Shown: positions 8,024-16,108 of the stretch, piece after piece
Numbering within the stretch: the first letter of the stretch is position 1
Layout: every line of letters starts with the position of its first letter
Source: an uncultured Bacteroidales bacterium
GTDB taxonomy: Bacteria; Bacteroidota; Bacteroidia; Bacteroidales; Paludibacteraceae
Direction: 5' to 3'
NCBI GenBank assembly: GCA_900316845.1
Contig: ONEG01000008.1
Location: 47,507-111,506, forward strand
Length of the DNA: 64,000 bases
The notes under the pieces: generated by a model
Told to the model about the DNA's origin: nothing
The model's database searches: none
The model's input: the letters and a program-made list of their open reading frames with translations, nothing else
Translations under genes and position numbers: made by a program

Positions 8024-8029
8024 CGGATT

Positions 8030-8052
8030 TTATGGTAGCTTTTTTACCATAA
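8030..8052 (+). terminator. Hairpin after clpB
   Basis: TTATGGTA and TACCATAA pair around a T-rich 7-nt loop. There is no downstream T tract, so it may be an mRNA 3' end stabiliser and not a full terminator. Confidence 0.4.
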
Positions 8053-8120
8053 TCAATCACTAATTTTCAAAAAATGGCATACAAATTTGCGTATGTCATT
8101 TTTTTATGTACCTTTATATA

Positions 8121-8151
8121 CAGAGTTTCGGGAACGAGGCTCTGTTTTTTT
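8121..8151 (+). terminator. Rho-independent terminator, copy 1 of a repeated element
   Basis: CAGAGTTTCG / CGAGGCTCTG form a 10-bp stem with a GGAA loop, followed by seven T. A near-identical element is at 9596-9626. Confidence 0.8.
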
Positions 8152-8215
8152 GTGCCTGCTTTTCTGCCCGTAGATGCATCAAAATATGCAAAAATCAAAA
8201 ATACTACCTTACATA

Positions 8216-8247
8216 TTTGCATATTTCAGAAAAAAGTTGTAATTTTG
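8216..8247 (+). promoter_or_regulatory. Bacteroidetes-type promoter
   Basis: TTTG at 8216-8219 and TAATTTTG at 8240-8247, with an A-rich spacer and the extended TTTGCATAT form of the upstream element. It precedes the WYL remnant and the DUF1016 gene. Confidence 0.8.
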
Positions 8248-8269
8248 CAAGCCATTTGATAAATACGCT

Positions 8270-8404
8270 ATGCCGCAAACGAAACAAAAACTCATACGAC
8301 ATTATGCGCTTGACCGCTGTTTGAAAAATCACAATGTTTTGAATATTGAGAAAACAGGCAAAATGCACGATTTATATAATAGAAATATATTCAACTATGG
8401 CTAA
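8270..8404 (+). pseudogene. N-terminal remnant of a WYL-type regulator
   Basis: A 44-codon frame placed just behind a good promoter. Its first 20 residues (MPQTKQKLIRHYALDRCLKN) resemble the opening of Bacteroidetes WYL/HTH regulators, in which an RY-x-LD-x-C-x-N pattern leads into the helix-turn-helix. After that the frame runs into the sequence before the DUF1016 gene (NHNVLNIEKTGKMHDLY...) and stops 8 nt inside it, so the DNA-binding and WYL domains are gone. A short functional leader peptide is the alternative. The call rests on recognition of a short motif only. Confidence 0.4.
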
Positions 8405-9503
8405 TATAGAAACAACGCAAAGGATTGAAGCATTGTTCGAGCGCATATCGTCCTTAATTGACCAAGCGCGGACTTATGCGATAAGTGCTGTCAAAATAGC
8501 AGAAGTCAAAACCCGCTATGAAGTGGGGCGCTATATCTTAGAAGACGAGCAGCAAGGCGAACGGGCAAAGTACGGAGAACAAGTCCTCAAACAATTATCC
8601 GCACGTTTAATGGAGCGATATGGGGCTGACTGGACGTATGATACGCTCGTTAGATGTCGTAAGTTCTATCAGGCTTATGCGAATGCTTCAATTGTAGCAA
8701 CGCCGTTGCCACAATTAGGAAATCAAGGTGAAGCGCCTGATTCTAAACAAGTTGCAGATTGTGGCAACGGCGTTGCTACAATTCAATTGCCTCGATTTAT
8801 CCTCTCTTGGTCGCACTATCTTATTCTGATGCGCATAGAGAATATCGAAGCACGCAGTTTCTATGAATTGGAGTGTGCGCAGCAACAATGGTCTGTCAAG
8901 CAACTCAGCCGTCAAGTCGGGAGCAGTTTGTATGAGCGTCTTGCGCTTAGTCGTAAGAAAGAGGAGGTGATGCGTTTGGCACAAGAAGGTCAGACAGTAG
9001 AGAAGCCGGAAGATATAATAAAGAATCCGCTTACTTTGGAGTTTCTTGGTCTTAAACCGGAGACCGTATATACAGAATCGAAGTTAGAAAATGCTATTAT
9101 CAGCAAGATGCAGCAGTTCCTGCTTGAACTGGGCAAGGGATTCTTGTTCGAGGCTCGCCAGAAGCGTTTTACATTCGATGAACGCAATTTCTATGTGGAT
9201 CTGGTGTTTTATAACCGTCTGCTCAAATGTTATGTACTGATTGATCTCAAAACCGGCGATTTGACACATCAAGACCTTGGTCAAATGCAGATGTATGTCA
9301 ATTATTACGACCGCTATGTTAAGCAAGACTTTGAGAACCCGACAATAGGTATTTTGCTCTGTAGTGAAAAGAGCGATGCCTTGGTAGAACTGACTTTGCC
9401 GGAAGACTCTAATGTGTATGCTTCGCAATATTCACTGTATTTACCGGACAAAGCACTGCTTCAACGCAAGCTCAAGGAATGGCGCGAAGAATTAGCGGAA
9501 TAA
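8397..9503 (+). CDS. DUF1016 / YhcG-type PDDEXK nuclease-domain protein
   Basis: 368 residues from ATG 8397; the in-frame TTG upstream lacks support. The N-terminal DUF1016 helical domain is followed by the family signature LSWSHYLILMRIENIEARSFYELE and WSVKQLSRQ. The C-terminal half has a PD-(D/E)XK nuclease core (FYVDLVFYN ... VLIDLKTG). Such proteins are common in accessory DNA and near restriction or toxin loci; no reaction is proven. Residues about 99-129 are encoded by a 25-bp perfect inverted repeat and its spacer, sitting in the variable linker before LSWSHY. The gene is more A+T-rich than clpB, suggesting acquisition. Confidence 0.85.
   Translation: MANIETTQRIEALFERISSLIDQARTYAISAVKIAEVKTRYEVGRYILEDEQQGERAKYGEQVLKQLSARLMERYGADWTYDTLVRCRKFYQAYANASIVATPLPQLGNQGEAPDSKQVADCGNGVATIQLPRFILSWSHYLILMRIENIEARSFYELECAQQQWSVKQLSRQVGSSLYERLALSRKKEEVMRLAQEGQTVEKPEDIIKNPLTLEFLGLKPETVYTESKLENAIISKMQQFLLELGKGFLFEARQKRFTFDERNFYVDLVFYNRLLKCYVLIDLKTGDLTHQDLGQMQMYVNYYDRYVKQDFENPTIGILLCSEKSDALVELTLPEDSNVYASQYSLYLPDKALLQRKLKEWREELAE
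8691..8782. repeat. 25-bp perfect inverted repeat inside the DUF1016 gene
   Basis: Left arm 8691-8715 and right arm 8758-8782 are exact reverse complements around a 42-nt spacer. Both arms contain GGCAACGGCGTTGC-like palindromic cores. The arms are translated as IVATPLPQ and CGNGVATI. Confidence 0.9.
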
Positions 9504-9595
9504 GACCTAAAATGGGAGACGATTTCACATATTCAAATAATCCAGGCAATGTTTGGAAAATTGAAAAATAGGCAAAAATGCACGATTTATATTTG

Positions 9596-9626
9596 CAGAG
9601 TTTCGAAAACGAGGCTCTGTTTTTTT
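9596..9626 (+). terminator. Rho-independent terminator, copy 2 of a repeated element
   Basis: Same 10-bp stem as 8121-8144 but with an AAAA loop, followed by seven T. It terminates the DUF1016 transcript before the rhuM-like gene. A GGCAAAAATGCACGATTTAT stretch just upstream is shared with 8357-8376. Confidence 0.8.
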
Positions 9627-9680
9627 GTTTCTATAAAAATGCAGATTTTTTTGTGGATGCTGGAAAAAAGAGAGATTTAT

Positions 9681-9711
9681 TTGCATAATTCAGAAAAAAG
9701 TAGTACCTTTG
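9681..9711 (+). promoter_or_regulatory. Promoter of the RhuM-family gene
   Basis: TTGCATAAT at 9681-9689 and TACCTTTG at 9704-9711, separated by an A-rich spacer. The start codon is 22 nt downstream. Confidence 0.85.
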
Positions 9712-9733
9712 CAAGCGCAATTAGATTCTTTTT

Positions 9734-10768
9734 ATGAATACACAAGATCTTACAAAAGATACCAAAGGAGAGATTGTTATCTATCAATCTGAAGAAGGGA
9801 GAGTTTCTGTTGATGTATTGTTTCAAGACGAAACGGTTTGGTTGCCTATTGAGCAAATGAGTATATTGTTTGGAAAATCGCGCTCTACCATCAACGAGCA
9901 TATTCTGAATATTTACAAGGAAGGTGAACTTTCCGAAGCAGATACGGTGAGAAAAATCGGAATTTCCGACTTTTCTACCAAACCCACCAATTTCTACAAC
10001 CTTGATGTCGTCATTTCTGTCGGTTATCGTGTTCATTCCGTGCAAGGTACGCGTTTCCGTCAATGGGCTACTCAGCGCATTCACGAATATATCATAAAAG
10101 GCTACACATTGGATGACGAACGGCTAAAAGGTAACGGAGGACGTTATTTCCGCGAATTACTCCAGCGTATCCGCGATATTCGTAGTAGTGAGCGCAACCT
10201 CTATCAGCAAGTGACCGACATCTATGCAACTGCGGTGGATTATGATCCGAAAGCCGAGATTACACGTCAGTTCTTTGCTACGGTGCAAAACAAGATGCAC
10301 TATGCAGCACACCAACATACAGCGGCTGAGGTGGTCTATGACAGAGTCGATAATGAAAAGCCGATGCTCGGCATGACGAACTTCAAAGGGAACTATATCA
10401 CAAAAGATGATGTAACTATTGCCAAGAACTATTTGACGGAAATAGAACTCCAGCGACTAAATCTGTTGGTGTCTCAGTTCTTCGACTATGCGGAATTGCA
10501 AGCGATGGAGCAACATCCTATGACCATGCAAGAGTGGATAGACGAACTCGATCGGGTGCTAAGCAATAACCGTCGCCCGTTGTTAGAAGGAAGCGGTTCT
10601 ATAAGCCACCAACAAGCGCAAGAAAAAGCCGTGCACGAATACACCATCTATCGTCAGCGAGAGATGAACCAATTAGAGTCCGACTATGATCGCGCCATAC
10701 GACAGTTATCTCTTTTCAGCGGTTCCACCGAACAACTCTCAGGAGAAACATCAATAGATGAAGAATAA
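9734..10768 (+). CDS. RhuM family protein
   Basis: 344 residues of the virulence-RhuM family. Visible family parts are the N-terminal module (EIVIYQSEEGRVSVDVLFQD, then ETVWLPIEQMSILFGKSRST), which looks like a helix-turn-helix region, the VVISVGYRVHSVQGTRFRQW segment, and the C-terminal Fic/Doc-like helical part. RhuM genes usually travel with mobile and defence-related DNA, and no biochemical role is established. It is monocistronic, with its own promoter 22 nt upstream and two palindromes after the stop. Confidence 0.85.
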   Translation: MNTQDLTKDTKGEIVIYQSEEGRVSVDVLFQDETVWLPIEQMSILFGKSRSTINEHILNIYKEGELSEADTVRKIGISDFSTKPTNFYNLDVVISVGYRVHSVQGTRFRQWATQRIHEYIIKGYTLDDERLKGNGGRYFRELLQRIRDIRSSERNLYQQVTDIYATAVDYDPKAEITRQFFATVQNKMHYAAHQHTAAEVVYDRVDNEKPMLGMTNFKGNYITKDDVTIAKNYLTEIELQRLNLLVSQFFDYAELQAMEQHPMTMQEWIDELDRVLSNNRRPLLEGSGSISHQQAQEKAVHEYTIYRQREMNQLESDYDRAIRQLSLFSGSTEQLSGETSIDEE

Positions 10769-10831
10769 AGGTTACTCTTAGCAATTGGGTGACATGAATA
10801 GATGAACGCCGCTCACCCCTTCGTCTATTGC

Positions 10832-10867
10832 GTCGGGATTAAATCCCGACATCGGCTCTCTGAGCCG
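10832..10867 (+). repeat. Two adjacent perfect palindromes after the RhuM gene
   Basis: GTCGGGATTAAATCCCGAC at 10832-10850 (9-bp arms) is followed by CGGCTC-TCT-GAGCCG at 10853-10867. There is no T tract. It could be a REP-like element or an mRNA 3' end structure. Confidence 0.7.
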
Positions 10868-10968
10868 CGTTCTGCCTTCGTCCGTTCAATATAAATAATT
10901 TTTGGATCCCAAGTGCAGATTTTTTTGTCTATTGTCTTTCTACTTTTGTCTAAAAATCTTTGATTATA

Positions 10969-11000
10969 TTTGCATATTTGAAAAAAAATCTATAAATTTG
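10969..11000 (+). promoter_or_regulatory. Distal promoter of the WYL operon
   Basis: TTTGCATATTTG at 10969-10980, an A tract and TAAATTTG at 10993-11000. It is the common extended class found elsewhere in the window, and lies about 30 nt upstream of a second, different promoter. Confidence 0.65.
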
Positions 11001-11013
11001 CACACTCTTTCAG

Positions 11014-11041
11014 TTTGTGGGAGTATGAAGCAGTAATTTTG
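11014..11041 (+). promoter_or_regulatory. Proximal promoter of the WYL operon (cluster-specific class)
   Basis: TTTGTGGGAG from 11014 and TAATTTTG at 11034-11041, with a 16-nt spacer instead of about 20. It shares TTTGTG...GTAATTTTGCA-CGTGA with the promoters at 13184 and 13899, so the three units of the cluster carry related control regions. Confidence 0.75.
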
Positions 11042-11063
11042 CACCGTGAAAAATTTAACGCAC

Positions 11064-11990
11064 ATGGAAACGAAGAAAAAACTTAAATCATCAACTGCTT
11101 ATCTTTTCAACTGCTATATTTGGCTGTTGAACACCATCGCACGCGGTCCTATTTCACGCGCAGCGATAGATGAAAAATGGGCACACTCGTCCGTTAACGA
11201 GTACAAACAGGACTATCTCCCGGAGAGTAATTTCCATCGGTGGAAAAGCACGGTTGAAATGCTTTTTGATGTCCATATCAAATGCAATGCCTATAATGAG
11301 TATTATATTGAAGAGGCATCTGACTTACGCGGCACAGATCTGCGTTTGCGCTTATTGAACTTAATGTCGATGGATAGCCTGCTTAAAGACAGCAAGGAAC
11401 TATCCGACCAAATTCTATTTGAGCCGATACCGTCTGGAGAAAAGTTCCTTGCGCCTATCATTGAAGCCCTGCGCGATAAGACAGCTATAGAAATGACTTA
11501 TCAGAGTTTTACAAAGGACTATCCCGCAACATTCATCGTTGAGCCATATTGTCTCAAGATGTTCAAGCAACGTTGGTACGTATTGGCATACTCACCCGGT
11601 ATAGATCAAACGTATTTGTATTCGCTTGACCGCATCCATGCCATTGAACCGACTACGCAGAAATATAAGTTGCCCAAAGGCTTCAATGCGGAAGCGTATT
11701 TCAAAGACGCTTATGGTACTGCTGATTTGAATTACGAGCCGGTCGAGGTTAAAATATCCGTTTCAGCCGAGCAAGTACCTTATTTGCGTTCCTTGCCGTT
11801 GCATACTTCGCAAGAAGAAATAGAGACGAATGAAGAGTATTCTATCTTCCGGTATTTTATTATTCCGAGCACCGACTTCAAGCAGGAATTATACAAATAC
11901 GGTTCCGATGTTGAGGTGCTTGCTCCGGAATCGATGCGGAAAGAGTTTGCGGAAGATGCAGATAGAGTAAATAAAATGTATAACCACTAA
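11064..11990 (+). CDS. WYL-domain transcriptional regulator
   Basis: 308 residues from ATG 11064; the GTG at 11046 lies almost on the transcription start. The N-terminal part (about 1-90) is a winged-helix-like DNA-binding region. The WYL domain follows with the sequence RWYVLAYS (R170-W171-Y172) after VEPYCLKMFKQ, and then a WCX-type C-terminal domain (YFKDAYGTADL to the end). WYL regulators of this build (BrxR/CapW-like) repress defence or stress operons and bind nucleic-acid or nucleotide ligands. Here it is first in an operon with two further genes (12 and 17 nt gaps) and is the likely regulator of the three sister promoters nearby. Confidence 0.85.
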   Translation: METKKKLKSSTAYLFNCYIWLLNTIARGPISRAAIDEKWAHSSVNEYKQDYLPESNFHRWKSTVEMLFDVHIKCNAYNEYYIEEASDLRGTDLRLRLLNLMSMDSLLKDSKELSDQILFEPIPSGEKFLAPIIEALRDKTAIEMTYQSFTKDYPATFIVEPYCLKMFKQRWYVLAYSPGIDQTYLYSLDRIHAIEPTTQKYKLPKGFNAEAYFKDAYGTADLNYEPVEVKISVSAEQVPYLRSLPLHTSQEEIETNEEYSIFRYFIIPSTDFKQELYKYGSDVEVLAPESMRKEFAEDADRVNKMYNH

Positions 11991-12002
11991 AAACTTAATA
12001 AT

Positions 12003-12803
12003 ATGGATTACGTAAAAAAGAATGAAGACATCTTACATAGATGGGAGCAAGAATATATTAAGCGTGGTCATAATGTGTCATTTACTCCTGATGGCATTAT
12101 GTATCGTGGTAAGGAATATCGGGATGGCGCCAATTGGGTACATTTAGAATCTGGCAGAGAAAATGAGTTGTGGGCCAAAGTTCCTTTGCGCATATTATTT
12201 TTAACAAAAGATCAAAATGGAGGCGACGATCATTCTAATTGGTGGGACTTACGAGGTGATTCTTACCATCATCCAGATAGTGATTTTGAGGAATACCGTT
12301 TATATAAACAATACGCATTTAATACCAATATTGTTAATATTTTATACGGTCTCGTGAAAACTATCCCTAATATGATGATTAACTTCGAAGATATCAACGT
12401 GCAGGAAGCATTAAAACTTGCAGATAGCTATCCATATGCGAGAATAAATTGTAAAAAGGAGACTGGTGGAAGTGATTGCAAAGATGAGGTGTTATCAAAA
12501 GCTATTGATGATTATAGAGACTTTTTACAGGAACAAATATGTAATTTGGATGCTGATATTTTCGTTTGTTGCGGGAATCACAACGACAATAACATTATTC
12601 TTAATAATCTTAATGAGTTTTATTGTGGAAAGTTTAAATGGATTGATTATGCCACTTGGTACAATGAGGAAGAAAACAAACTTGCGATAGATTTGTATCA
12701 TCTTAGTCGTCCTTACTATGCAAGAAAGACAATGTATGAAGATGCAATTATACCATATCACAACTTCATACAGAAGCACCCAGAATTTGTTAAACATCGT
12801 TAA
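12003..12803 (+). CDS. Unknown protein with uracil-DNA-glycosylase-like sequence pattern
   Basis: 266 residues, no signal peptide. The order of short segments recalls the uracil-DNA-glycosylase superfamily. A hydrophobic strand with an Asp-Gln-Asn turn (LRILFLTKDQN) is followed by ARINCKKETGG and a helix, then a strand ending in Cys-Gly (ADIFVCCG, the place of the usual LG), and a C-terminal YHLSRPYY where the HPS motif would be. The catalytic residues are not convincingly conserved, so activity is open. It is very A+T-rich and directly follows the WYL regulator, so the two are probably one functional unit. Assignment is tentative. Confidence 0.6.
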   Translation: MDYVKKNEDILHRWEQEYIKRGHNVSFTPDGIMYRGKEYRDGANWVHLESGRENELWAKVPLRILFLTKDQNGGDDHSNWWDLRGDSYHHPDSDFEEYRLYKQYAFNTNIVNILYGLVKTIPNMMINFEDINVQEALKLADSYPYARINCKKETGGSDCKDEVLSKAIDDYRDFLQEQICNLDADIFVCCGNHNDNNIILNNLNEFYCGKFKWIDYATWYNEEENKLAIDLYHLSRPYYARKTMYEDAIIPYHNFIQKHPEFVKHR

Positions 12804-12820
12804 TTTTAAATAATTTAGTT

Positions 12821-13165
12821 ATGCCTAACATGATTACACTCGGCAGTGAACTGATTAGAATCAATCCTGCAAAAAACACAATTGAGTATTCAACAAATGG
12901 TGGACGTTTCTGGGTGTCTCGTTGCACAAGTTCTTCGTATGGAACATTTGTTGACTTATTGCCATTTGGGAATGAGCTTATTGCAATTACAAGCAAAGGA
13001 GTCTATGCTTCCACAAACAAGGGCAGTTTTTGGGTATCAAGATGTACAAGTTCTTCCTATGGAGAATTTCTTTCATTAACCGACGGCGGAAAAGAAATCT
13101 TGGCACAAACTTCCAAAGGTTTGTATTATAGTACAAATGGCGGTCGCTTTTGGGTAAGAAGATAA
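12821..13165 (+). CDS. Small Asp-box-like beta-repeat protein
   Basis: 114 residues built from about 2.6 copies of a 40-residue repeat. Each copy has GxELxxxTSKGxYxSTNxGxFW, then VSRCTSSSYGxF. The S-T-N-x-G-x-F-W core is an Asp-box/BNR-like motif with Asn where Asp is usual. The repeat units would form beta-propeller-like blades, but the chain is too short for a whole propeller and would have to oligomerise. It lacks a signal peptide and is third in the WYL operon. No function is recognised. Confidence 0.65.
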   Translation: MPNMITLGSELIRINPAKNTIEYSTNGGRFWVSRCTSSSYGTFVDLLPFGNELIAITSKGVYASTNKGSFWVSRCTSSSYGEFLSLTDGGKEILAQTSKGLYYSTNGGRFWVRR

Positions 13166-13183
13166 AAAATGTGCCTCTTCCTT

Positions 13184-13211
13184 TTTGTGGGAGTTTGGTT
13201 TTGTAATTTTG
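13184..13211 (+). promoter_or_regulatory. Promoter of the secreted-protein gene (cluster-specific class)
   Basis: TTTG ends at 13187 and TAATTTTG lies at 13204-13211, with a 16-nt spacer. The TTTGTGGGAG start is identical to that of the WYL-operon proximal promoter. Confidence 0.75.
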
Positions 13212-13238
13212 CAGCGTGATTCGTTTGGGTCACGCTGC
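13211..13238 (+). promoter_or_regulatory. Inverted repeat at the transcription start
   Basis: GCAGCGTGA (13211-13219) and TCACGCTGC (13230-13238) are perfect 9-bp arms around 10 nt, beginning on the last base of the -7 box. It may be an operator or a 5'-terminal RNA hairpin. A sister copy lies at 13927-13950. Confidence 0.75.
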
Positions 13239-13266
13239 ATTATTATAATAATCAAATTAACAAGTT

Positions 13267-13878
13267 ATGAGAAAAGTTATTCTTTTTGGTCTGCTTCTCT
13301 TCATGGGAGTAGCAACCGCATTTGGACAAAAGTCCGCAGTTCAAGTATTTGGTGTCCCTTTCGGGAGTACTTATGAGGAGTTCTTAACCGCTTTTAGCGA
13401 AAAGGGCTTTACAGGGAAAACGTACATCTATGAAGGAGGAAGTGATGTTGAAGTTAGTAGTATCTACGGCACTTTTATGACTTACGAGTGCTATATAGAA
13501 ATGCGCGCTACCAAACTTACACACACTGTTTACAAGATTAAGATTTCCTTCTCCGTTACCGACAAGTATAAAGACATCCCCGGAATGGAGCAGTGTCGCG
13601 CTATCATTTCGCGCTTTGAGGAGAAGTATGGTAAAGCTACTTTGATCCAAAAGATGCACGGCGGTAAGGTCGTTCAAGATTTGGAAGAAAGTAGTGCAGC
13701 AATCTGGCATTTAGACGATAAGATTGATTTGGAGTTATTCTATCGAGGCTTTGATGATTGTAAGGTGACTTATGGGGGCAAGGAAGCACTGGATGGTATA
13801 TTCCAGAAAGAAGTTGACCAATACAATCAGCAGAAAGCTCAGGAGATACAAAATCAACTATCCGGAAGCGATTTTTAA
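13267..13878 (+). CDS. Secreted protein of unknown function
   Basis: 203 residues with a clear signal peptide (MRKVILFGLLLFMGVATAFG, cut before QKS). The mature part is a mixed alpha/beta domain. VFGVPFGSTYEEFLTAFSEKG near its start recalls small periplasmic proteins that carry a similar FG-x-P-FG-x-S/T motif, but no family is recognised. The C-terminus is a polar, Gln-rich helix. It has its own promoter and +1 inverted repeat, so it forms the second transcription unit of the cluster. Confidence 0.7.
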   Translation: MRKVILFGLLLFMGVATAFGQKSAVQVFGVPFGSTYEEFLTAFSEKGFTGKTYIYEGGSDVEVSSIYGTFMTYECYIEMRATKLTHTVYKIKISFSVTDKYKDIPGMEQCRAIISRFEEKYGKATLIQKMHGGKVVQDLEESSAAIWHLDDKIDLELFYRGFDDCKVTYGGKEALDGIFQKEVDQYNQQKAQEIQNQLSGSDF

Positions 13879-13898
13879 TAAAAATAATGCTCTGCCAC

Positions 13899-13926
13899 TT
13901 TGTGAACGAGCGGAGCAGTAATTTTG
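13899..13926 (+). promoter_or_regulatory. Promoter of the third cluster unit
   Basis: TTTG at 13899-13902, 16-nt spacer, TAATTTTG at 13919-13926. The sequence GCAGTAATTTTGCA is shared with the WYL promoter. Confidence 0.75.
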
Positions 13927-13959
13927 CAGCGTGATTCGAAAGTCACGCTGTATTTTTTT
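13927..13959 (+). promoter_or_regulatory. +1 inverted repeat with T tract (attenuator-like)
   Basis: CAGCGTGA (13927-13934) and TCACGCTG (13943-13950) form an 8-bp stem with loop TTCGAAAG, followed directly by TATTTTTTT. As RNA this resembles an intrinsic terminator at the very start of the transcript; as DNA it could be an operator. Confidence 0.65.
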
Positions 13960-13971
13960 AATTGATAGATT

Positions 13972-14235
13972 ATGACAACACAAGAAATCAACGACCAGCT
14001 TGAATTGCTACGTCTTAAAGAACTCTTTATGTCAGACATTGACATCCGTAGCAAAATGGCGGTACTTATTTGCAATAACCGAGAGGAAGATCCGCCTTTC
14101 AAAGAATTTTGCGAACTAACGCATTGTGAACCGCACATTGCCAAGATGTTTTCTGAAATCACTTTGTTTGCTGTTATTCTCACTCCGGAGGAGATAGCAG
14201 CCGAGCGTGAAAGATTAGAAAGGAAGAAACTATAA
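13972..14235 (+). CDS. Small unknown protein
   Basis: 87 residues, mostly helical, without signal peptide or membrane segment. It has a Cys-rich middle (C48, C56, C61 region: LICNNREEDPPFKEFCE, then LTHCEP) and a charged C-terminal helix (EEIAAERERLERKKL). It resembles no family I know. It starts about 45 nt after the attenuator-like hairpin and is followed by the next gene after 12 nt, so it leads the third unit. Confidence 0.55.
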   Translation: MTTQEINDQLELLRLKELFMSDIDIRSKMAVLICNNREEDPPFKEFCELTHCEPHIAKMFSEITLFAVILTPEEIAAERERLERKKL

Positions 14236-14247
14236 TGCTGTAAAGCT

Positions 14248-14883
14248 ATGATACAATACGACGAACAAACTCTTCAACTTATAGAGGAGGAAATAAGCTA
14301 CATTTATGATTCTGATGCAACAGGTTATCCGGAAGGTGAATATTTGTTGGACTTACGAAAAAGAATCTTGAACGAGCAAGCATGTACGCGTAAAGCACAA
14401 GAAGAACTTCTGCCCGACATAATTGCCTTTAATGATGCCTTGCATGACGCGCTTAAACGTATGTATGATCGCGCGCATGAACTCTATCGTCAGATGTCTG
14501 CTATTCAGCCAGACATTATGTTAACCGCCAAATGTTATCTTGCATATGACTATCCTGCTTTGCATCCCTACCAAAAAGAAGATAGGCAAAAGTTGTTTAA
14601 TGCTATAAGCGATTTCGGTTGGAATAGTCTATATGCAGATGGAGTTACTTTTTCATTGGTATTGCCACGCGATATAGACATGCCTTTCGACACCATCAGA
14701 GGTATGGACTGCACGCCGTTTAACTGGAATGAAGGTCTTGACCCCGAACTTACGAAAGATCTCCATATCAATCGTGCCTTCCACAATCTTTTTGACCATA
14801 CAAAATTTGCTCTCACAGATTTTATCTTCTGCCGAGATTTTGTCTTTGAGTATAGCACAATTATACAAGAACAAACCAACTAA
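14248..14883 (+). CDS. Unknown cytoplasmic protein
   Basis: 211 residues, no signal peptide. The N-terminal 90 residues are strongly helical and acidic. A central segment (ALHPYQKEDRQKLFNAISDF) precedes a strand-rich part and a C-terminal segment with HNLFDHTKFALTDFIFCRDF, where His and Asp residues cluster. No family is recognised. It lies between the 87-residue protein and the LRR protein with gaps of 12 and 14 nt, so all three are one transcript. Confidence 0.6.
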   Translation: MIQYDEQTLQLIEEEISYIYDSDATGYPEGEYLLDLRKRILNEQACTRKAQEELLPDIIAFNDALHDALKRMYDRAHELYRQMSAIQPDIMLTAKCYLAYDYPALHPYQKEDRQKLFNAISDFGWNSLYADGVTFSLVLPRDIDMPFDTIRGMDCTPFNWNEGLDPELTKDLHINRAFHNLFDHTKFALTDFIFCRDFVFEYSTIIQEQTN

Positions 14884-14897
14884 TCTAATTAACAAGC

Positions 14898-15740
14898 ATG
14901 AAAACATTTGTTAGAAAACACTTTAGAGATGAGTATGGAGTGCAATTTTCTACTTGTGGAGACATTACCACACTCACACGTATGCCATCGGGGTTAAAGG
15001 GAGCATATCGAATACCGGATTTTGTGACTGACATTGGCGCATATGCCATAAATGGATGCAATGAATTGACGTCACTAATCATTCCGAAAACTGTATCGAT
15101 GATAGGGAAGAATAATTTTGAGTTGTGTGAGCAACTGACTTCTCTGGTCGTTGAGCAAGGAAATCCTATGTTTGACTCTCGTGAAAACTGCAATGCTATC
15201 ATTGTTACTGCGACTAACACACTGGTTCATGGTTGCAATAGTTCATCTATACCTGATAGCATTGAGGTAATTGCAGACTCTGCCTTTTCTCAACGGCGCA
15301 ATTTATCGCACATTTCTATTCCGGATAGCGTTGTGTATATTGGAGAATTCGCCTTCTTGGGCTGTTATTCATTAGAAAGCGAAATCAAATTACAGGGCAT
15401 CCATCAAGTGACAAGAAGTTGTTTCGACGGCTGCAGTAGTCTTAAAAAAGTCTCTATTGGCAGCGGTATTGAGTCTGTCGAGTCAGGTGCATTTGCCGCT
15501 TGCTCCATGCTATCAGAAGTAGTAATAACAGAGGGCACAAAATATATAGGAACTTATGCATTCAATGACTGCAATAGTTTGGCTTCTATTACCTTGCCTA
15601 AGTCAATAGAACGCATTGAGTCCACCGCATTTGATAGGTGCAATCGTATTGAGCGCGTGTTTATTCCGAAAGGCTCCACAGACTACTTTATGCGCTTCGA
15701 CGCGCTCAAACAATACCGTCACCGGTTTGTAGAATTGTGA
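14898..15740 (+). CDS. BspA-type leucine-rich-repeat protein without signal peptide
   Basis: 280 residues with about eight LRR_5 units of roughly 23 residues, pattern IxxxAFxxCxxLxxIxIPxSVxxIG. A typical family cap is at the C-terminus (IFIPKGSTDYF-like, then MRFDALKQYRHRF). BspA-like proteins are usually exported adhesins, but this one begins MKTFVRKHFRDEYG with no signal sequence, so it should stay in the cytoplasm. There it could act as a recognition module for the neighbouring proteins. It is the last gene of the third unit and is followed by a strong terminator. Confidence 0.85.
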   Translation: MKTFVRKHFRDEYGVQFSTCGDITTLTRMPSGLKGAYRIPDFVTDIGAYAINGCNELTSLIIPKTVSMIGKNNFELCEQLTSLVVEQGNPMFDSRENCNAIIVTATNTLVHGCNSSSIPDSIEVIADSAFSQRRNLSHISIPDSVVYIGEFAFLGCYSLESEIKLQGIHQVTRSCFDGCSSLKKVSIGSGIESVESGAFAACSMLSEVVITEGTKYIGTYAFNDCNSLASITLPKSIERIESTAFDRCNRIERVFIPKGSTDYFMRFDALKQYRHRFVEL

Positions 15741-15742
15741 TA

Positions 15743-15769
15743 AATGTGCGGCTAACGACCGCACATTTT
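15743..15769 (+). terminator. Rho-independent terminator closing the cluster
   Basis: AATGTGCGG (15743-15751) pairs with CCGCACATT (15759-15767) around CTAACGA, followed by TTT. It begins 2 nt after the LRR stop codon. Confidence 0.8.
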
Positions 15770-16108
15770 GTTGACAAGTCGGATGGTTTCTTTCTTTTGT
15801 ACAAATAAATATCGTCTTATGCAAGCATAGCCGCTATCTATGTAAAATAGTTAAAATTGCATTTTACTTGGCAAATTTATACCCGAAAATTTTCATATAT
15901 CAAAAAAATAATTTTTGATTCATTTTTGGTAATTTTGGACAAAAAAAAAAAATCTCCTCTTCCATTTTAGCCGCTTGTATAAAAATATTGTGCAAATACC
16001 TGTCAACCTCGTTTCAACATCGGTTCAAATGGTCATAAATCAGCAGACCTTGCGCTGACGTTGCGCTGAGGTTAGGGAGAAAGAAAAATGATAGAAAATC
16101 GGCATAAA
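15770..16108. other. A+T-rich gap without recognisable gene
   Basis: About 340 bp between the island and the FecCD permease. It is rich in A/T runs, with one imperfect short duplication (GCGCTGACGTTGCGCTGAGG near 16050). I see no tRNA, no conserved RNA and no credible coding frame. It may mark the island edge. Confidence 0.5.

Follow-up and report, generated by a model that had tools for sequence, protein, structure and literature searches.

A WYL-headed, exchangeable gene array with recurring operator-promoters in the Paludibacteraceae: a candidate inducible defence or DNA-damage island

The array and its promoters

The stretch of DNA considered here (the window, 64,000 nucleotides long) comes from an uncultured Bacteroidales gut bacterium of the family Paludibacteraceae (assembly GCA_900316845.1, contig ONEG01000008.1, positions 47,507 to 111,506 of the forward strand), and the system in question is an array of seven genes, all on the + strand, that begins with the gene of a WYL transcription regulator and is arranged in three units. 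The promoters of the three units (P1, P2 and P3) have in common a 17-bp imperfect palindrome (the operators start at 11007, 13177 and 13892) followed, after exactly 10 nucleotides (nt), by TAATTTTGC. The layout of each promoter is then 17-bp operator, 10 nt and TAATTTTGCA, and the TTG usually found at -33 is missing from all three. An earlier sequence-only reading of the locus had pointed to three promoters sharing TTTGTG and a 16-nt spacing, and both were confirmed: TTTGTG-N13-GTAATTTTGCA occurs at 11014, 13184 and 13899, with 16 nt from TTTG to TAATTTTG. The operator palindrome, of the type CTTTCAC-TTT-GTGAAAG, had been overlooked.

Operator 1 (CTTTCAGTTTGTGGGAG, 11007..11023), a 17-bp imperfect palindrome, ends 10 nt before the TA of the P1 -7 element (TAATTTTG, 11034..11041); operator 2 (CTTCCTTTTTGTGGGAG, 13177..13193) precedes the -7 element of P2 (TAATTTTG, 13204..13211), and operator 3 (CTGCCACTTTGTGAACG, 13892..13908), whose right arm is weaker, precedes that of P3 (TAATTTTG, 13919..13926). 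The WYL gene has, in addition, an ordinary Bacteroidota promoter, P0 (10969..11000, +), with TTTG at 10969-10972, 20 nt, and TAAATTTG at 10993-11000; the -7 elements of P0 and P1 are exactly 41 nt apart, P0 being the upstream one, an arrangement that had also escaped the first reading. The exact sequence GTAATTTTGCASCGTGA is present at three places in the window, which are the three array promoters, and with up to 3 mismatches it has 5 matches, compared with 0.33 expected. Throughout the window's own genome, TTTGTG-N10..20-TAATTTTGCA occurs at five places, the three array promoters and two others with an 18-nt gap. The array is closed by an inverted repeat that resembles a terminator and has a short T run, ATGTGCGG-CTAACGA-CCGCACAT (15743..15768, +), read directly from the sequence.

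The first unit contains three genes. The WYL gene (11064..11990, or from a GTG start at 11046) encodes a protein of 308 amino acids (cluster c0) that matches the Pfam families WYL (1e-14) and WCX (1.6e-10) above their cut-offs, in agreement with the initial assignment. Its best solved relative in a WYL profile search is PafBC (1e-10); DriD (8tp8), at 2e-5, ranks lower, with several other WYL chains in between. The N-terminal part is conserved, and no helix-turn-helix family of Pfam matches it at E<=1. In PADLOC the gene matches WYL models and, in part, a model labelled Cas3c. The WYL proteins of two relatives, L047 and L054, are near-identical up to about residue 190 and clearly different beyond it, and thus the regulators themselves look recombinant at the level of sequence. 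Next comes a putative UDG-superfamily-like protein of 266 amino acids (12003..12803, cluster c3), which had been called glycosylase-like. The likeness is weak: no Pfam match is above the cut-off, a profile against the PDB reaches UDG at E 0.03, and one relative has a match to Pfam UDG at E 0.003, which falls short of the cut-off of that family. Some c3 relatives contain GES and HPS stretches, which we take to be motifs of such enzymes. The unit ends with a BNR/Asp-box-like repeat protein of 114 amino acids (12821..13165, weak BNR match, E 0.02).

The second unit consists of one gene (13267..13878), whose product of 203 amino acids (cluster c5) has a signal-peptide-like start, judged by eye, and no family match. 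The third begins with two conserved proteins, c2 (13972..14235, 87 amino acids; mean column identity of 77% in an alignment of 12) and c1 (14248..14883, 211 amino acids; alignment of 11), the latter often found directly after c2, and ends with an LRR_5 protein of the BspA type (14898..15740, 280 amino acids, Pfam 3.5e-42). No significant family match was obtained for c1 or c2 in Pfam, PADLOC and further searches, nor for c1 against the PDB.

Promoter geometry across related loci

The consensus of Bacteroidota promoters, as given in the part of the source consulted, is TAnnTTTG at -7 and TTTG near -33 (PMC7366714). Upstream of 250 TAnnTTTGC sites, TTTG was counted 46 times at 16 nt and 44 times at 20 nt, and it is from these counts that 20 nt is taken as the usual distance here; the share of the 16-nt spacing is inflated, because the DNA examined had been fetched around the signature. 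When TTTG is extended to TTTGTG, 41 of 49 occurrences fall in the 16-nt register. The distinction drawn earlier between these promoters and the 20-nt class is therefore justified, the 16-nt spacing forming a class of its own.

What sets the array promoters apart is the loss of the -33 box, whose positions are covered by the operator. TTG at the -33 distance (19-21 nt) was found in none of 55 leader-bearing array units (units opened by the hairpin described below) and in none of 43 further operator sites, compared with 217 of 430 ordinary -7 sites. The operators are also more palindromic than the corresponding positions elsewhere, with a mean of 4.67 pairs out of 8 at the 55 units vs 1.94 at 418 other sites. 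Most of the 43 operator sites outside the leader-bearing units are WYL leaders, and 19 of them, including that of the window, have an ordinary promoter like P0 whose -7 element is exactly 41 nt upstream (18 of the 19 with TTG at the -33 distance), an arrangement seen in 0 of the 55 units. Four of nine class II sites (see below) without a leader hairpin have instead an ordinary promoter 51-52 nt downstream. These upstream and downstream promoters imply that many regulators of the arrays have a basal promoter of their own. In the 41-nt arrangement the operator sits just past the -7 element of P0, and to judge by this position, binding could block P0 while P1 is used.

One explanation of such operators is that the WYL protein is a repressor of the BrxR or CapW type, which would sit on the palindromes and keep the units off until phage infection supplies a releasing ligand. 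The WYL proteins of defence loci described in the portions of the literature consulted, BrxR (PMC9122601) and CapW (PMC9122588), are repressors, and the operator just downstream of P0 lies where P0 would be blocked. However, according to the same portions, the BrxR repeats come after the -10 box, which the sites of CapW overlap, whereas the operators of P1-P3 precede the -7 box and occupy the position of the -33 box, and a BrxR- or CapW-like placement is found only relative to P0. Moreover, with no TTG at -33 in any of the 55 units, the array promoters should be weak without help. Activation is favoured because the operators sit where activator sites sit and the -33 box is gone, and we consider repression unlikely.

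Operator class and WYL clade

The leaders of the array units were collected with a covariance model, R1, built from 26 leaders that had been located beforehand with operator or hairpin patterns; because the training leaders begin with the -7 box, the model contains no operator. A search of 65 sources with it yielded 70 hits, 69 of which were examined (the one omitted, of 30.3 bits, is a reverse-strand duplicate in L059), and two of the 69 repeat a place that is present twice (L061 and L099). Two operator classes can be recognised at these hits. Class I, of the type CTYYCAC-TTT-GTGRRAG, precedes 33 of 33 units for which the closest WYL protein upstream has a score of 484 bits or more, and class II, CTGC-N9-GCAG or a near form, precedes 16 of 16 units behind WYL proteins of 349-392 bits when judged by eye (15 of 16 by the strict pattern). 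The single site behind a 299-bit WYL protein belongs to neither class, and the 19 sites with no WYL gene upstream in the stretch examined divide into 9 of class I and 10 of neither. An operator accompanies 47 of 48 hits of at least 51 bits and 10 of 21 below.

The correspondence holds when the sites are selected in other ways. Counting distinct places only, there are 31 class I and 15 class II sites (Fisher test, 2e-12); after removal of the 26 training leaders, 12 and 8 (8e-6); and among loci fetched by WYL protein or leader only, rather than by promoter signature, 8 and 15 (2e-6). In none of the three tables, outside which stands the class II site that fails the strict pattern, is a class I site found behind a WYL protein of clade II or the reverse. 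A hold-out of 75 loci fetched by WYL protein gave 53 R1 hits, 33 of them repeats that were dropped. Judged by eye, each of the 20 new units has a class I operator (the pattern recognises 19), and the WYL proteins upstream of them score 512-591 bits; 19 of the units come from named genome contigs and one, L208, from a viral collection, and no class II unit is among them. As far as can be read from sequence, then, operator class goes with WYL clade.

Among 526 -7 sites, 460 are not units of the leader model, and 418 of these carry neither operator class, which answers the question of whether the signature stands at unrelated genes throughout the genome in the negative. The other 42 are mostly WYL-gene leaders (the list was read by eye), with exceptions in L040, L060 and L113, second sites in L100 and L104, and one site in L133. 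In L124 (7380-7430), a leader scoring 57.8 bits has neither a class I nor a class II operator; TGGAA-N9-TTCCA stands near the operator position, perhaps another class.

Leader hairpins

Units 2 and 3 of the window open with hairpins that the first reading had overlooked. That of unit 2 (13211..13238, +) has a 12-bp stem, GCAGCGTGATTC-GTTT-GGGTCACGCTGC, with an 80-nt fold of -24 kcal/mol (z -5.1) and an R1 score of 57 bits; that of unit 3 (13926..13951, +) has 11 bp, GCAGCGTGATT-CGAA-AGTCACGCTGT, with a 75-nt fold of -16.8 kcal/mol (z -3.0) and 60.1 bits. Both are training sequences of R1. The leader of the WYL gene in the window shows no such fold (z -0.15). Over the 26 training sequences, 96.8% of the cells of the 12-bp stem are paired, vs 18-45% when the stem is slid; three stem pairs are changed on both sides, each in one sequence, and two pairs have 11 GU exchanges each, which fit an RNA rather than a DNA palindrome.

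The hairpin is not specific to the arrays, since 11 of the 21 R1 hits below 51 bits have no operator by pattern, and several of these weak hits, L130, L134, L135 and L137 among them, represent a related hairpin, GCACCGTCATTC..GAGTGGCGGTGC, that stands at other genes. This second family of 5' hairpins stands directly after -7 boxes of genes without operator in L137 (9827-9871, contig C26 of the window's own genome), L130, L134, L135 and L128. Leader hairpins may be widespread in the genus.

Distribution among genomes and genomic neighbourhood

The signature TTTGTG-N13-GTAATTTTGCA is present in 19 of 101 genomes of the same genus, the window's own included, and its reversed control in none. Of 24 regions fetched around it, 19, plus the window, contain an orthologue of the WYL gene (cluster c0, from lists of open reading frames, ORFs). 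In the remaining five, L044 starts at a contig end, the WYL gene of L063 runs off the end of its contig, and no WYL gene is present in L040, L060 or L062; the signature places of L040 and L062 are not followed by an array, and that of L062 resembles chance. Thus, the same gene set is found with the same promoter signature in other genomes, the set varying around a common order, and the proposal that units with common control regions act together gains support both from this recurrence and from the match of operator class to WYL clade. L060 (9232-9311 and 9603-10610) deserves separate mention: here a class I operator-promoter is an orphan, its leader broken and no WYL gene detected in the vicinity, and it lies upstream of an ORF that we take to be RecA-like from its sequence; an ORF related to one of array L104 directly precedes it, and a PLD gene of the array type is nearby.

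Chance likeness of ordinary promoters would be the simplest explanation of the signature, and TAnnTTTG is indeed a common -7 box in the part of the source seen (PMC7366714); it is refuted by the recurrence throughout the genus with no reversed match, the class-clade match, the hold-out, and the palindrome and -33 statistics, and we give it practically no credit.

At E 0.001, R1 finds leaders in 45 of the 101 genomes (in 26 at 51 bits or more), a figure that overstates the arrays because the hairpin family is wider than they are. In an order-wide sample of 295 genomes it finds 2, both of the same genus, with only 21 candidates scored per genome, so that weak leaders could be missed; c2 was found in the same sample only in the window's own genome (1 of 295). 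The named relatives (69 loci) are mostly metagenome-assembled genomes of uncultured rumen or gut Paludibacteraceae or Bacteroidales, with some WYL relatives, 32-40% identical, in Bacteroidaceae, Prevotella and Salinivirgaceae.

Outside the genus, the sequences present the operator geometry at some loci and the array is mostly absent. In 12 of 28 loci, the region upstream of the WYL gene has a palindrome with at least 4 of 8 pairs at 10 nt from a following -7 box, vs 2-10 loci at other distances. The idea that multi-unit arrays are general in the order is unsupported: among 40 WYL loci of other genera, a palindrome recurring at 10 nt was found in L222 only, and the control distances of 7 and 22 nt gave one such locus each. 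L202 and L205 repeat a palindrome of their own at 10 nt, and L201 has a single one. These are GTCYCACGATTTGAGAC-like palindromes (L202:1115, 4293 and 6993; L205:6941 and 8073; L201:3984), and the WYL proteins are 32-34% identical to that of the window. A class I-like site far from the genus was seen by eye at L195, a Salinivirgaceae locus with 39% WYL identity, where CTCCTATTATTTGAGAG, 10 nt and TATATTTGC lie upstream of the WYL gene.

The array of the window has two upstream neighbours on the same strand, a YhcG/DUF1016 nuclease of the PD-(D/E)XK type (8397..9503; Pfam; PADLOC PDC-S02, 4e-135) and a RhuM-family protein (9734..10768; Pfam; PADLOC PDC-S05, 6e-137). A block of about 8 kb (8024..16108) is absent from the relative G087 (L271), in which the flanks aligned by blastn, clp and fecCD, are 28 nt apart, and therefore YhcG, RhuM and the array are missing there as one block. 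In three other relatives (L268, L269 and L270) fecCD is conserved and WYL, c1, YhcG and clp were not found in the stretches examined, that of L268 covering only about 2 kb of the upstream side; L270 has two RhuM-like pieces about 12 kb from fecCD. The combination that characterises phage-defence islands, clustered defence-type genes at a variable chromosomal site, is thus found here, with YhcG and RhuM adjoining the array and the block absent in L271.

Alternatively, plasmids or integrative elements might carry the arrays as cargo or have left them behind as remnants, with the WYL protein regulating the maintenance of the element. An array with a WYL protein 61% identical to that of the window stands on a contig of a viral collection (L208) with an ArdA gene downstream, and plasmid pE2-28 of Prevotella sp. 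E2-28 (L214) carries a relative, WYL followed by exonuclease-DUF262-DUF262. Nevertheless, the block of the window lies between clp and fecCD-panB-galK, which are genes of chromosomal type, and neither c1 nor the UDG-like protein has a match in the phage collection, nor the UDG-like protein among plasmids. A regulon belonging to the mobile element itself seems to us quite improbable.

Gene content of the arrays

The 103 stretches headed by a WYL gene reduce to 66 distinct arrays by near-identity, with labels taken from the best BLAST hit; the counts given here are lower bounds, since many arrays are truncated by contig ends and only ORFs beginning with ATG were called. The WYL protein scores at least 480 bits in 50 of the 66, a cut that leaves L105 and L184-L188 (432-463 bits, with class I-like operators where seen) in the lower group. 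At least 32 of these 50 arrays contain the UDG-like protein, at least 25 c1, at least 18 c2, and at least 14 each DUF6140 and the exonuclease; PDDEXK_4 (at least 9), BNR (at least 7), PLD (at least 6), FtsK (at least 5) and SprT (at least 4) are rarer. The usual order is WYL, one or more enzymes, often DUF6140 or BNR, operator plus hairpin, a second block, c2, c1 and sometimes LRR. The place of the small BNR protein, last in the first unit, is taken in other arrays by a DUF6140 protein. The module families identified with Pfam are RNase_T, PLDc_2, PDDEXK_4, SprT-like, FtsK_SpoIIIE, DnaB_C, GmrSD_N and DUF6140, to which ZapA-like (below or near the cut-off), DUF3658 and LRR_4 can be added. Array content, as judged from these family assignments, is combinatorial, drawing on UDG-like, exonuclease, PD-(D/E)XK, GmrSD/DUF262, PLD, FtsK and SprT proteins. 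In L208 (1704-3609) two extra ORFs, UDG-like by eye, directly precede the WYL gene, one of them with a ZapA-like C-terminus (Pfam 8e-4, below the cut-off).

Five of eight array modules scanned match PADLOC models: PDDEXK_4 matches PDC-S26; the exonuclease, DEDDh and PDC-S48; PLD, DrmC; FtsK, SspH and mad8; and the N-terminal part of GmrSD, HEC-06 and SspE. No PADLOC match was obtained for the second DUF262, SprT-like and HEAT-like proteins.

The same content could be read as a DNA-damage regulon independent of SOS, in which the host chromosome is repaired or checked, as by the PafBC and DriD regulons, and phage defence plays no part. The UDG-like, exonuclease, SprT-like, FtsK-like and ZapA-like proteins of the arrays are in keeping with it, as are the solved relatives of the regulator (PafBC best, DriD at 2e-5) and the orphan class I promoter upstream of the presumably RecA-like ORF of L060. 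Set against this are the patchy spread (19 of 101 genomes with the exact signature, absence at the site in one relative), a repair regulon being normally core, and the matches to GmrSD, PDC-S26, PDC-S48 and DrmC-like models, which look like defence. We regard a purely repair-oriented role as possible, though doubtful.

Proposed mode of action and its significance

The explanation that we favour, and hold to be probable although far from certain, is that a WYL activator working in the manner of PafBC and SiwR switches on a modular defence or DNA-damage island. Basal WYL protein would be produced from P0 and would respond to a signal; this is probably a nucleic acid arising in the course of phage attack or DNA damage. 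The WYL dimer would then bind the 17-bp palindrome at the place of the -33 box, 10 nt upstream of -7, and bring RNA polymerase to P1, P2 and P3, as PafBC and SiwR do. All units would rise jointly: the regulator with the UDG-like and BNR proteins, then the secreted-type protein, then c2, c1 and the LRR protein. The hairpin that opens each downstream mRNA would probably protect it or set its translation, and the products would act against foreign or damaged DNA. Since the same operator precedes each block, blocks can be exchanged while remaining in the regulon.

Several observations weigh against this explanation. All 17 aligned WYL proteins have S, G or A at the position preceding LDR, and the R of LDR is invariant; with the correspondence to PafB assigned by reading the alignment, one of the two PafB arginines needed for binding single-stranded DNA appears to be replaced and the second kept. 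With the pair half conserved, single-stranded DNA is doubtful as the signal and the ligand may be another. The presence of LRR, BNR and secreted-type proteins does not obviously fit defence. The sequence-only reading had placed the regulator among those of defence operons, which the PADLOC matches of associated modules and neighbours support, but among the seven array genes of the window none except the WYL gene matches PADLOC. As regards the operators, the distances between them and those between WYL N-termini are correlated (Mantel r 0.79 for 34 loci; 0.45 within class I, 24 loci), which is no independent proof, because both follow descent; the training leaders were chosen from sites first found by operator or hairpin patterns; and the expectation that operators of the same locus are more alike within class I is unsupported (4.40 vs 4.74 mismatches, p 0.17).

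A more far-reaching version can be put forward tentatively: that of an addressable, combinatorial immune array, in which a WYL protein and its operator form a private address, clades differ in address, and any block that arrives downstream of the right operator and leader hairpin becomes part of the induced set. One promoter geometry would then have parallel addresses in class I, class II and, in a few more distant Bacteroidales loci, GTCYCACGATTTGAGAC, and these, if this is true, would let a cell carry and shuffle several non-interfering kits.

Taken together, the observations suggest a tunable kit of anti-virus or DNA-repair genes under one regulator, with relatives that keep the same layout and have different blocks and matching switches. 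The promoter code (a palindrome 10 nt before the -7 box and no -33 box) is readable from genomes and offers a direct way to find more arrays, and c1, c2, the UDG-like proteins and DUF6140 become predictable members of an inducible defence or repair response.

Comparison with known systems

Searches of the open-licence literature found no account of an array or promoter geometry of this kind in the phylum, nor anything on DUF6140 or on WYL with UDG and anti-phage function. Several modules of other arrays match GmrSD/DUF262, Ssp, DISARM DrmC and PADLOC PDC-S candidates, as single proteins and not as a complete known system. With BrxR of BREX and CapW of CBASS the array shares a WYL gene at the head of a defence-like island, palindromic operators and likely autoregulation, and differs from them in the operator placement discussed above.

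A parallel in gene order is pE2-28, with the same succession of WYL, 3'-5' exonuclease, DUF262 and DUF262 as in array L049. Behind these genes (L214 12440-12500) lie GTGCCCCAAAACGGCAC, 10 nt, TATTTTTGC and a GCACCAT..ATGGTGC hairpin, and a gene annotated zapA comes next. As in the window, a -7 box has a palindrome 10 nt ahead of it (position 12469 of L214); unlike in the window, the regulator is 41% identical, the operator is GTGCCCCAAAACGGCAC and the leader hairpin is of another sequence. No palindrome at 10 nt was found directly before the WYL gene of the plasmid.

As for mechanism, the nearest models are the activators. In the portions of the accounts consulted, SiwR binds a 19-bp imperfect palindrome upstream of -10 (PMC10693628), PafBC recognises a motif at -26 and takes up a position between the DNA and sigma domain 4 (PMC11804915), and DriD activates from a 20-bp pseudo-palindrome (PMC12340889). 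The array resembles all three in having a WYL-WCX regulator and targets linked to genotoxic stress; like SiwR and PafBC, so far as those portions describe them, it has its site upstream of the -10/-7 box, here 10 nt from -7 and replacing the -33 box in all 55 units, and like PafBC it would provide a way round the -35 box. It departs from PafBC in the arginine that appears to be replaced, and from PafBC, SiwR and DriD in using the Bacteroidota -7 box and in being an exchangeable array headed by one regulator, with up to 4 promoter copies seen. The WYL regulators described in the literature consulted, as far as it was seen, control one or a few adjacent operons, whereas here one regulator heads a whole exchangeable set.

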